Origin: Nitrospirota bacterium
Lineage (GTDB): Bacteria; Nitrospirota; Thermodesulfovibrionia; Thermodesulfovibrionales; JdFR-88
Length of the DNA: 64,000 nt
NCBI GenBank assembly: GCA_021789935.1
Contig: JAJYIR010000004.1
Coordinates: 1-64,000 of the forward strand
Direction: 5' to 3'
Shown here: in pieces, positions 55,428-58,930 of the stretch
Numbering within the stretch: position 1 is the stretch's first letter
Layout: each line of letters begins with the position of its first letter
Position numbers and translations under genes: made by a program
Notes under the pieces: generated by a model
What the model saw: the letters and a program-made list of their open reading frames with translations, nothing else
Told to the model about the DNA's origin: nothing
The model's database searches: none

Positions 55428-55490
55428 ACCCTCTTTCCTTGAAAAACAACAGTTTTAATGGTACAGATTAAAATAGGGAGAAAGTCATCC

Positions 55491-57188
55491 ATGAAAAGAA
55501 CCGAACTGACAAAAGATCAGCTGATTGAAGAACTGAACGAGATGAGCCGGAAGATGGCGGAGGTGGAAAGGTGCCGCAAGGACTTTTTGGCAGTCCAGGA
55601 CAAATACCACGGGCTGCTGGACGCCTCTCCGGACCCGATGATATTCGTGACCAGGGATTATGAGATCGTATTCGCAAATGCCCAGGCGGAGGAGCTGTTC
55701 GGATACAAACAGGAGGAAATGGTCTGCCAAAGCTTGAATAAGCTCATACCCCCAAGGTATCACAGGATGCACAGTATCTTCGTGGAAGGGTTCTTCTCGG
55801 ACCCGAGAAGACGCCCCATGGGAGTGGGGCTCAAGCTCTACGCGATAAAGAAAAGCGGAGAGGAATTCAGGGTGGACATAAGCCTGAGCCCGATCAGGCT
55901 TAATGGGGAACTGGTCACGGTGGCTGCGGTCAGGGACATAACCGACCGCATAAAAGAACAGGAGATGATAGAAAAGAATTACTACTTCCAAAAGGTCCTG
56001 GACTCCATACTCAAGATCTCGCTTGAAACGGCCCCTTTAAACCATAAGCTTTCAAGTGCCCTGGAACTTATCCTCTCAGTGCCTCACCTGGCGCTGAAGA
56101 TGAAAGGCGCCGTCTACCTGGTCTCCAGGGAAGCCGGGGAGCTTATCCTGGCCGCAGACAGCGGCTTTAGCGAGGCGCAAATAGCCTCCTGCTCCAGGGT
56201 GCCCCTCGGGAAATGCCTTTGCGGGAAGGCGGCGCAAAAATGCGAACTCCTTTTTACGGACTGCCCTGGAGAGGGGCATGAGATACAGTTTGAAGACGGC
56301 TTCCCCCACGGCCATTACTGCGTCCCCATAGTCTCGGGGGGCAGGCCCCTGGGTCTGATAAACGTCTACCTGCGCGAGGGGCACAAGAGGGACGCGGATG
56401 AGGACAACTTTCTTATCTCGGTTTCGGACGCCTTCGCGGGCATGATAGCCAGGGAGGAGACCGAGAGGGAGAAGGAAAGGCTGCAGGCGGACCTTGCCCA
56501 GGCGGAGAAGCTGGCCGCCGTGGGAAGGATCACCGCAAATGTGGCACATTCCATCAGAAACCCCCTCACGTCGGTGGGGGGATTTGCCAGAAGACTCCAA
56601 AAAAAGCTTGAAACGGGCAGCGCCGGACGGGAGTATGCGGATTTCATCGTTGAGGAAGTGGCGGCCCTGGAAAAGATACTTTCGAGCGTCCTTTCCTATT
56701 CCCGGACGTCCCCGGCGCACCTGGAAGAGCAAGACATGCGGGATGTGGCCGACTTCGTTATTACGATGTACGGGGACGCCATGAAGGAGCATTCAATAAC
56801 CGTCACAAGGTCCTACAAAGAAGTCCCTAAATTGCTCATAGACAGGCAGCGAGTGCAGGAGGCCCTGGAAAATGTCCTTATAAACGCCATTGACTCCATG
56901 TCGCAGGGCGGGAAGCTCACTGTGGAGGTGACCGGGATGACCGTGAAGAAGAGGCCCTATGTAGTTGTCAAAATAAAAGATACCGGCCAGGGGATGGATA
57001 AGAAAACAGCAGGCAGAATATTCGAACCGTTTTTTTCGACGAAAACAGAAAGAGGGGGCTACGGACTTGGACTGTCCATCAGCAGGAAGATAATAGAGGA
57101 GCATGACGGGTTCATATCCGTAGAAAGCAAGCCTGGGGAAGGCTCGGTTTTCTATCTCTATTTTCCGGAAAGACACCGGCTGGAATAA
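55491..57188 (+). CDS. PAS-GAF sensor histidine kinase
   Basis: A soluble kinase of 565 residues from the ATG at 55491 (GGGAGAAAG upstream). Order: short coiled coil (about 1-35), PAS domain (about 35-155), GAF domain (about 170-320), coiled coil, HisKA with NVAHSIRNPLTS (His about 353), and an ATPase domain with NVLINAIDSMS, DTGQGM and GYGLGLS. The GAF domain has a cluster of Cys around GKCLCGKAA and a later HGHYCVPI, a pattern I know from many proteobacterial sensors; a metal or thiol role is possible. No membrane helix is present. It is the first of three sensory genes in one direction, and the only one with a complete His box. Confidence 0.94.
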   Translation: MKRTELTKDQLIEELNEMSRKMAEVERCRKDFLAVQDKYHGLLDASPDPMIFVTRDYEIVFANAQAEELFGYKQEEMVCQSLNKLIPPRYHRMHSIFVEGFFSDPRRRPMGVGLKLYAIKKSGEEFRVDISLSPIRLNGELVTVAAVRDITDRIKEQEMIEKNYYFQKVLDSILKISLETAPLNHKLSSALELILSVPHLALKMKGAVYLVSREAGELILAADSGFSEAQIASCSRVPLGKCLCGKAAQKCELLFTDCPGEGHEIQFEDGFPHGHYCVPIVSGGRPLGLINVYLREGHKRDADEDNFLISVSDAFAGMIAREETEREKERLQADLAQAEKLAAVGRITANVAHSIRNPLTSVGGFARRLQKKLETGSAGREYADFIVEEVAALEKILSSVLSYSRTSPAHLEEQDMRDVADFVITMYGDAMKEHSITVTRSYKEVPKLLIDRQRVQEALENVLINAIDSMSQGGKLTVEVTGMTVKKRPYVVVKIKDTGQGMDKKTAGRIFEPFFSTKTERGGYGLGLSISRKIIEEHDGFISVESKPGEGSVFYLYFPERHRLE

Positions 57189-57272: not shown

Positions 57273-57740
57273 ATGAAAAAACCCGCAGAGAAGAGCGACG
57301 CGTTTTTAGACCTCATGGTGGACTGGCAGACAATTGAAGGCGATATGATGCAATATGCCGAAGAGGAGGCGGCAAAGACCCTGAACACTCTTGAAAAAAC
57401 AATGGCCCAGGTAATAGGCCTTGAGGCCCGCAAACGCTGCGTAATACAGCAGATGATAGTTGAGAGCGTAAAGAAAGAAGCGGCCCACCTGGACCCGGAG
57501 GAGATACAAAGCCTTATCGGCCACATCAACCATTTTGTGGAAACCGAGGAGAAGGAGTTGCCCATGGCGGAAGCCGCGCTCCAAAAAAGCGAACTGTTCC
57601 TGTCCAGGTATCTGCTTTCTTATCTCATTGCCGACCTCAAAAAGGGAAACGTGCTGCTCCGGAAGTTTGCCGATGAGCTGAAATCCGCCACTATTTCCAC
57701 ATCCGTGACATCAAAGATATACGGACCAGGTTCGGAGTGA
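57273..57740 (+). CDS. Helical protein, possibly a degenerate ferritin-like bundle
   Basis: A 155-residue, all-helical soluble protein, lying between two kinases (84 bp after the first, 17 bp before the second). Four helices can be drawn: about 12-48, 49-78, 80-112 and 113-140. The last two (HINHFVETEEKELPMAEAAL, then SRYLLSYLIADLKKG) resemble ferritin-like bundles in which that final motif is usually DEKKHH. Here the expected Glu and His are replaced by Leu, Gly and Asn, so a di-iron site would be lost. I do not recognise a named family. A structural or signalling-adaptor role between the two kinases is the simplest reading. GAAAGGAGG precedes the ATG. Confidence 0.7.
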   Translation: MKKPAEKSDAFLDLMVDWQTIEGDMMQYAEEEAAKTLNTLEKTMAQVIGLEARKRCVIQQMIVESVKKEAAHLDPEEIQSLIGHINHFVETEEKELPMAEAALQKSELFLSRYLLSYLIADLKKGNVLLRKFADELKSATISTSVTSKIYGPGSE

Positions 57741-57757: not shown

Positions 57758-58930
57758 TTGGCGGGCATGAGATACGAGGCCCTTTCCCTATCCGTCCCTT
57801 ATGGCAAGCTCAACGCGCTCAAGGAGCAGCTTGGCTTGACAGGGGACGCCCTCGCGGTATTGGCCCCTTACAGGAAGGCCTTTATCGAAAACAGCGTGGC
57901 CTTTGCCGGTTATTTTTACAAAATCTTCATGGGCATATCCGACACCAGAAAGATTATTGAGGGGCTTGAGAACCCACAATCGCTTAAAGACGCGTGGGCC
58001 AACTGGTTCAGGACCGTGTTCATGCTGGAACTGGACGAAAACTTCCTGGCATACCTCTGGAGGATCGGCATAAGACACGTGGAGGTAAACCTGGACCAGA
58101 GATACACGAACCTGGGTTTTTCCGTCGTAAGGCAGTTTTGCCGGGATGTGATCCGGAAGGAAGTTGCGCCCGCCGATGCCGCCCAGGCGGCTTTCGTGAT
58201 AGACAATATCCTTGACCTGTGCCTGCTTACGGAGACCAGCGCCTTCATAGAGGCATCGAGCAGGTGCGACATAGAGATAATAAAGGGAATAGCGGACAGG
58301 ATAAGAAACCCCATAACCGTAATCGGGGGCAACCTGAAGCGCATACAGAAGCTGCTCGACATAAAAGACCCCTCGTACTGCGTTGTGGAGGACATCATAG
58401 CCCAAAGCTCGAAATGCGAGTCCATGGTTGCCGACATCAAGACCTACATAGACATGTTCCAGAAGGAGTCCTACCCCGTCAAGATATCGCTTCCGGACCT
58501 TGTAAGACTCGTCCTGGAAGATATTCAGGCAAAACCGGAGGCGCAAAGGGTGAGCATGGAGACAGTCCTGGACCCTATGACAAACTCCATCGAGGCCGAC
58601 CCCCCGGACATAAAAGCGGCCTTATACCAGGTGCTTGAAAACGCCCTGGAGGCGGCGGCCACCGCCCCGGACCCGCGTATCCGCATCTCTTCAGGACCTT
58701 ACAGGGCGCCTTTCAAGGCAGTAAAGATAAGCATATTCAATACGGGGGTCCCCCCAAGGGCTGAAGACATGGAAAGACTTTTCTCCCTGTTTTATTCCAC
58801 CAAGCCCGGCGGCTCCGGCTTCGGTCTGCCCATAGCGCGCCTTGCCGTCAGAAAAAACCTGGGAAGGATAACCGTGGAGGCCCTGCCCGGCGAAGGAACC
58901 AGGGTAACCATAGTGCTCCCAAAGAGTTGA
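57758..58930 (+). CDS. Protoglobin-coupled histidine-kinase-like protein lacking the phospho-acceptor His
   Basis: A 390-residue soluble protein. The N-terminal 165 residues are a protoglobin/globin-coupled sensor domain; His 107 in IGIRHVEVNLDQRY fits the proximal haem ligand. The kinase part begins at about 170. Its H box reads GIADRIRNPITVIGG, where the usual GIAHEIRNPL has His: Asp 180 takes the acceptor place. The ATPase domain has the N box (QVLENALEAA), a G1-like FNTGVPP with Asn for the usual Asp, and GGSGFGLPIA. It may be a phosphatase, an allosteric partner of the upstream kinase, or a heterodimer subunit. The start is a TTG at 57758 (GGAGG 12 bp upstream) or an ATG at 57767. Confidence 0.88.
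   Translation: MAGMRYEALSLSVPYGKLNALKEQLGLTGDALAVLAPYRKAFIENSVAFAGYFYKIFMGISDTRKIIEGLENPQSLKDAWANWFRTVFMLELDENFLAYLWRIGIRHVEVNLDQRYTNLGFSVVRQFCRDVIRKEVAPADAAQAAFVIDNILDLCLLTETSAFIEASSRCDIEIIKGIADRIRNPITVIGGNLKRIQKLLDIKDPSYCVVEDIIAQSSKCESMVADIKTYIDMFQKESYPVKISLPDLVRLVLEDIQAKPEAQRVSMETVLDPMTNSIEADPPDIKAALYQVLENALEAAATAPDPRIRISSGPYRAPFKAVKISIFNTGVPPRAEDMERLFSLFYSTKPGGSGFGLPIARLAVRKNLGRITVEALPGEGTRVTIVLPKS

Follow-up and report, generated by a model that had tools for sequence, protein, structure and literature searches.

A globin-coupled transmitter with aspartate at the phospho-acceptor position in Nitrospirota is a candidate haem-controlled phosphatase

Transmitters with altered acceptor sites

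In HisKA histidine kinases the first Asn of the N box pairs with the acid that follows the phospho-acceptor His (position +1), and both residues position phosphotransfer. The effect of removing single residues of this kind has been described for CrdS, whose acceptor motif reads AHEIRNP (PMC3510030). The H371A mutant has lost kinase activity but continues to dephosphorylate its regulator, with a half-life of 2.6 min compared with 0.7 for the wild-type enzyme and 53.5 in the enzyme-free control; the E372A mutant likewise has no kinase activity, its phosphatase activity being undiminished, and Asn-375 is needed for the phosphatase reaction only. The CrdS mutants and the protein reported here both lose the acceptor His or the +1 acid in an AHEIRNP-type motif and keep the Asn at +4, but the CrdS changes are engineered, single and leave the CA domain unchanged, whereas here they define a natural class. 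DrBphP, the Deinococcus phytochrome, is a natural light-controlled phosphatase with no detectable kinase activity, in which His takes the place of both the +1 acid and the N-box Asn; the same study reports that a His at +1 goes with loss of N-box conservation (PMC8292422). Our protein resembles DrBphP in having a HisKA transmitter, a joint replacement of the +1 acid and N-box Asn, and a polar +4 residue. It differs in that DrBphP retains its His, has Glu at +4 and senses through a bilin, whereas we find Asp, a +4 Asn and a haem globin.

DivL from Caulobacter (PMC4211667) is likewise a HisKA-fold transmitter with a non-His acceptor residue, but this residue is Tyr rather than Asp, and DivL lacks phosphatase activity and is a weak ATP binder. 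As summarised in PMC3510030, CheZ and NarX need a DxxxQ motif for phosphatase activity, and CheX uses ExxN. The acid and amide at positions i and i+4 of one helix recur here as Asp177-x-x-x-Asn181, but the amide is Asn rather than Gln, the CheZ fold is unrelated, and NarX keeps its phospho-acceptor His. The combination of an N-terminal protoglobin with a DHp-CA transmitter is shared with AfGcHK (Anaeromyxobacter) and NmpU (Myxococcus), both of which need their haem-ligand His, NmpU H96A losing haem (PMC8697598, PMC11841059). AfGcHK and NmpU autophosphorylate, whereas the acceptor His, +1 acid and N-box Asn are gone in our protein; and the nmpU operon contains receiver genes, whereas no receiver gene adjoins the gene described below.

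A globin-coupled protein with Asp in place of the acceptor His

The window, a stretch of 64,000 nucleotides from a Nitrospirota bacterium, encodes a globin-coupled, Asp-type histidine-kinase-like protein of 387 aa (57767..58930, + strand, defined by ORF and Pfam evidence). The ATG at 57767 is the start common to close orthologues; an alternative TTG at 57758, nine bases 5′, would add three residues. A protoglobin domain (residues 14–141, 57806..58189, + strand) matches PF11563 with 49.2 bits against a cut-off of 25, and a whole-genome search returned this protein as the sole protoglobin match in the 2.47 Mb genome (50.8 bits). HATPase_c covers residues 278–386 with 58.6 bits (cut-off 26.4), whereas the HisKA match at residues 171–226 stays below its curated cut-off (22.3 versus 26.9 bits). 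Among the 24 full-length family members defined below, the HisKA profile matches 20 at E ≤ 0.1 and HATPase_c all 24. The globin-coupled histidine kinase architecture proposed in a first-pass annotation is thus borne out, with a sub-threshold HisKA core.

His104 (58076..58078, + strand), the predicted proximal haem ligand, is invariant in 24/24 members and lines up with chain position 93 in the GsGCS globin 2w31. Tyr51 is, by its spacing, the likely B10 aromatic residue, in a column that is not invariant (Y15, H5, F2, T1, N1). With a protoglobin above cut-off and a proximal His, the protein classifies as a globin-coupled sensor, and haem and gas binding are predicted. An AlphaFold2 model computed from nine sequences (mean pLDDT 83.7) contains a single unbroken helix, residues 135–196, that runs from the globin into the DHp, and a second DHp helix at residues 202–232. 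Conservation and the model together delimit DHp helix α1 to residues 166–199 (58262..58363, + strand). The solved folds nearest to the model are histidine kinase transmitters, among them DivL (4q20, TM-score by target 0.67–0.74), RetS and ZraS (up to 0.79 by the same measure).

Positions 58268–58330 (+ strand) encode DIEIIKGIADRIRNPITVIGG, residues 168–188. The alignment with Thermotoga ThkA (PDB 3a0r, E 2.7e-19) pairs GIADRIRNPIT with RVAHEIRNPIT without a gap, and we therefore assign Asp177 (codon GAC, 58295..58297, + strand) to the phospho-acceptor His position, an assignment also supported by the family alignment, and Arg178 (58298..58300, + strand) to +1, where kinases have their catalytic Glu or Asp (the column reads R 17, K 6, M 1; n = 24). 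The annotated exchanges of His for Asp and Glu for Arg hold; the label Asp 180 had named the right residue, counted from the TTG, and becomes Asp177 from the ATG. Asn181 (58307..58309, + strand), the HisKA phosphatase residue at +4, is kept in 24/24 members.

Alignment of the CA domain shows the N box at residues 288–292 (58628..58642, + strand), with Gln288 for the first Asn and Asn292 kept. The G1 box reads N-T-G (58739..58747, + strand), with Asn325 for Asp (Asn in 24/24; N-x-G is also found in ThkA) and Gly327 kept. The F and G2 boxes, FYSTKPGGSGFG (58790..58825, + strand), supply the ATP lid and glycines, with Phe342, Thr345, Gly351 and Gly353 invariant. The N box and GSGFGL motif had been annotated as kept: both are present, as is the F box, but the first N-box Asn and the G1 Asp are replaced. 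Asn292, Gly327, Gly351 and Gly353 are invariant across the globin family and, together with the HATPase_c score, they uphold the earlier suggestion of ATP binding; the CA domain is predicted to bind nucleotide and probably does so. As judged from its residues, the protein does not qualify as a HisKA histidine kinase: acceptor His, +1 acid and first N-box Asn are all missing, and the profile score falls below the cut-off.

Relatives were drawn from a genome contig collection, from the taxonomic family of the window and from 396 genomes of the phylum Nitrospirota. In the phylum search, a gap separates the weakest match to the globin family (E 6e-60) from the best of the remaining globin matches (2e-20); where inspected, the latter form a separate family that combines a protoglobin with a PsiE-like membrane domain. 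Such proteins of about 300 aa (L075–L083 and further phylum matches) are apparently common in the phylum and represent a type of globin-coupled sensor whose output part lies in the membrane. The genome contig scan, made with one single-sequence query of limited reach, found full-length globin relatives in Nitrospirae records only. Our alignment comprises 24 full-length members including the window's own, to which the others are 39–86% identical.

Ala176, Asp177, Arg180 and Asn181 are invariant in all 24. Across the globin-coupled members found in Nitrospirota, the acceptor site is Asp in 25/25 and His in none. The 25th copy (L065, G150:C21:9502-9987) is truncated or frameshifted, with an open frame of 205 aa that ends shortly past the H box; it still reads ADRVRN. 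Mean conservation is 0.87 for residues 170–190, compared with 0.65 for the globin as a whole and 0.62 for the CA domain, and the best-conserved stretches are the H-box segment and the haem-ligand segment around His104. Among members of the genus, dN/dS is 0.11–0.12 for the gene and 0.02–0.10 for helix α1, and the Asp change is therefore held by purifying selection. A sequencing error or a pseudogene is ruled out by the Asp in 25/25 members and the low dN/dS. The first-pass annotation had named homologues with His, or a conserved His elsewhere in the helix, as observations that would count against it; neither was encountered among the globin-coupled members. No substitute His is conserved in the DHp, the commonest His column elsewhere reaching 5/23 globin members, and another His in the acceptor helix is ruled out likewise. 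One genome holds two diverged copies of the globin-coupled Asp-type protein (G170:C23 and G170:C29; L073, L105), the second close to a superoxide dismutase-like gene.

Asp-type transmitters with other sensors and a coupled residue switch

We ran a DNA pattern for A-D-x-[IV]-R-N over the genome of the window and one for ADxxRNP phylum-wide. The window's genome contains a second Asp-type transmitter, with the core VADRVRNP (G000:C14:77963-78580, locus L164, outside the window). It is a membrane-anchored protein encoded by an ORF of 381 aa, VADRVRNPATIIGA, with a membrane N-terminus and a conserved C-terminal tail PGEPxxxGL. Its orthologues occur in five related genomes, two of them without a globin-type protein. 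Forty regions of the same order (L219–L258) yielded 36 kinase-like proteins (for example at L230, L237 and L253), one of them truncated, with AD[RK]xRNP motifs such as ERTMSLMALTVADRVRNPAAVIG. The ADxxRNP pattern also matched in many Nitrospirota families outside the order, but thirty inspected loci from there proved to be other frames of unrelated genes and held no kinase-like protein; pattern matches outside the order were therefore discarded. About 40 further non-redundant, non-globin proteins of the lineage share the AD[R/K]xRN core. Their N-terminal sensors include receiver, dCache plus HAMP and Tll0287 haem-c-type domains and transmembrane regions; several of the 36 kinase-like proteins are receiver-DHp-CA fusions with an Asp-type core. 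Our literature searches returned no described His-to-Asp transmitter class, and the globin protein belongs to a conserved class that is apparently new to the literature. Both the invariant globin family and this much larger class had escaped the first-pass annotation.

A profile of Asp-type cores, run over all ORFs of the sampled loci, gave 130 cores after removal of near-copies. The acceptor column contains His in 67 and Asp in 63, and no other residue. His-type cores have the +1 acid in 62/67 cases and Asn as first N-box residue in 65/67. Non-globin Asp types instead have Arg or Lys at +1 (37/40) and His at the first N-box position (36/40); these proteins were mostly found by a pattern demanding Asp and Asn in the H box, and their H-box frequencies are biased because the search already required both residues. 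No such selection on H-box residues applies to the N-box residue, which lies about 110 residues away, or to the globin family as a whole. Globin-family cores have Arg or Lys at +1 in 22/23, with a first N-box residue that varies (H 9, Q 6, Y 3, R 2 and three others, with E, C and N seen) and is Asn in 1/23. Counted by rows, His, acid and N-box Asn occur together in 63, and Asp, a basic residue and an N-box residue other than Asn in 63 of 69 Asp rows, counts that are not independent events because the rows are related by descent.

Conservation of the second N-box Asn and of the G2 glycines is 100% in the His-type, non-globin Asp-type and globin groups. At the G1 position, the non-globin Asp types retain Asp and the globin-family members have Asn. 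The +4 Asn is retained in 62/63 Asp-type cores and also in 50/67 His cores; one Asp-type protein, L033, has lost it. The acid/amide pair DxxxN at i and i+4 is thus present in 62/63 Asp-type cores, with Asn for the Gln of DxxxQ; the two residues may pair in catalysis.

A tree built after masking the two trait columns recovers the globin family as one clade (100%) and the main non-globin Asp group as another (98%), their joining being weak (79%). Further Asp types occur in the family of the PAS-GAF kinase encoded upstream of the globin gene, where H boxes read AHEIRNP (five orthologues), AHSIRNP (genus of the window) and SHAIRNP (L120), and where L122, L123 and L128 read ADEIRNP or ADEFRNP. Two of these Asp members are in the tree and group with His members at 99%; L122, L123 and L128 share sensor regions with the His members. 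Because of the shared sensor regions and the 99% branch we read the data as at least two origins of Asp types, noting that the best tree holding all Asp types together is 18.7 log units worse with p-AU 0.165, so that a single clade is not formally rejected. In the ADE members the +1 acid is still present, and L128 has the N-box Asn as well, which looks like a preceding step along the same path. As its orthologues vary between AHEIRNP, AHSIRNP, SHAIRNP and ADEIRNP, the upstream-kinase family seems to lose kinase residues repeatedly.

Gene neighbourhood and possible functions

The globin gene is the third of a putative three-gene operon. The first gene encodes the PAS-GAF-HisKA-HATPase histidine kinase (55458..57188, + strand; ORF and Pfam), whose H box AHSIRNP has Ser for the +1 acid; the second, directly upstream of the globin gene, encodes a 155-aa four-helix protein (57273..57740, + strand; low-confidence model, pLDDT 59). 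The genes are separated by 84 and 26 bases, and their order is kept in four genomes of the genus; in two genera the 155-aa gene is the immediate neighbour of the globin gene, and in a third a single gene separates them. The 155-aa protein has no Pfam match. A histidine phosphotransfer domain was considered and rejected, as the protein has no invariant His. Its model returned no fold match under E 0.1. The family occurs in 19/21 globin-protein genomes of the phylum sample and 60/396 overall, counted irrespective of kinship. It has conserved ends, with other loci at L099:7134-7589 and L101:6067-6633. An Fe/Mn superoxide dismutase gene immediately precedes one paralogue, and cytochrome bd genes are found close to another, neighbours that fit an oxygen-related role.

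In the families examined, no receiver gene lies beside the globin gene and neighbours differ between families, and we dropped the attempt to find a partner by gene neighbourhood. The window's genome contains 72 receiver matches; together with the missing adjoining receiver gene, this indicates that the target should be sought in trans. In one lineage (L007, L008 and L103), genes for an ECF sigma factor and a zf-HC2 anti-sigma-like zinc finger are located directly 3′ of the globin-coupled gene (L007:4998-7750 and L103:6542-9347), and the open frames touch in L007.

The first-pass annotation had listed a phosphatase, an allosteric partner or the use of another residue as possible outcomes, a shortlist that we retain, and the residue pattern favours its phosphatase branch, because the altered H site goes together with loss of both the +1 acid and the N-box Asn and with retention of the +4 Asn. 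We consider the chances slightly better than even that the protein is a haem-controlled, kinase-dead response-regulator phosphatase, a reading based on sequence analysis. The +4 Asn is common in His cores too, and its retention is therefore consistent with, rather than unique to, phosphatase function. Arguing against a phosphatase are the retained ATP site of the CA domain, which a pure phosphatase might not need, the lack of a response regulator gene beside the globin gene, the loss of the +4 Asn in L033, and the precedent of DivL, a His-less transmitter without phosphatase activity (PMC4211667). The transmitter could instead be an allosteric platform, neither kinase nor phosphatase, that recognises a (phospho-)receiver or another kinase, an explanation that we regard as possible though distinctly less probable. 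DivL, whose H site is occupied by Tyr, lacks both activities and acts as a sensor of DivK~P (PMC4211667); it is among the closest fold matches of our model, which likewise places a non-His residue at the acceptor position of a conserved, folded transmitter; and in the window's genus a histidine kinase gene is found two genes upstream in the same orientation. Yet every globin-family member, and almost every protein of the Asp-type class, has the +4 Asn, and the residue that recurs at the H site is Asp, never Tyr, Asn, Gln or Ala, which suggests a chemical role over simple loss. That upstream kinase might be an obligate partner, forming heterodimers with the globin protein or engaging in trans phosphorylation, with the globin adding O2 control. 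Such an arrangement would agree with the gene order conserved in four genomes and with the kinase/pseudokinase heterodimer reported for HrrS-ChrS (PMC9491836). We think it unlikely, however: the kinase orthologue and the globin gene are on different contigs in genus g3 (G004), G005 has no match to the kinase sensor region at E 1e-25, no histidine kinase gene lies directly beside the globin gene in other families of the order, and the upstream protein itself has no +1 acid and is therefore a doubtful kinase.

Readings in which the CA domain still transfers phosphate fare worse. Phosphorylation of Asp177, followed by an Asp-to-Asp relay, would make use of the conserved ATP-site residues (second N-box Asn, G1 and G2 glycines, F-box Lys/Arg) and of an acceptor position that is always His or Asp, but both residues responsible for positioning the transfer, the +1 base and the N-box Asn, have been replaced. 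To our knowledge no such chemistry is known, and our literature searches returned no report of it; we judge an aspartyl autokinase very improbable. The same low probability attaches to its extension, in which the Asp-type DHp would be a separate catalytic class, an acyl-phosphate transmitter under haem, receiver, Cache and other sensors in the Nitrospirota lineage. Least probable of all appears to be a CA domain that phosphorylates another residue or protein in the manner of pyruvate dehydrogenase kinase: mitochondrial PDK chains do match the CA part weakly (E 0.006–0.026), but the matches span the common GHKL fold only, and the first N-box residue, which takes part in transfer, is variable in the globin family.

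A sensor phosphatase thus fits best and an allosteric protein of the DivL kind second. The phosphatase would be a cytoplasmic, dimeric sensor of O2 or another gas, with the ligand bound at the haem of the globin and the signal passing along the continuous helix into a HisKA-like DHp core that does not phosphorylate itself at the usual site. Its output would be the binding and dephosphorylation, in trans, of one or more response regulators; Asp177 and Asn181, one helical turn apart, may place the attacking water as the DxxxQ residues do in CheZ and NarX. The CA domain could then act as a nucleotide-dependent conformational clamp, and ligation of the globin would turn its activity as a phosphatase on or off. 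The term 'kinase' is probably a misnomer here.

His-less transmitters have so far mostly been treated singly, as with DivL and similar proteins, whereas here they form a lineage-wide class under many sensors. The same three positions in two domains are switched together while the phosphatase residue is kept, a natural test of the determinants of kinase versus phosphatase activity. Where Asp-type genes are automatically labelled 'sensor histidine kinase', the annotation may have the sign of their activity wrong, and our findings suggest that some of the presumed 'kinases' in these bacteria serve solely to turn signals off.
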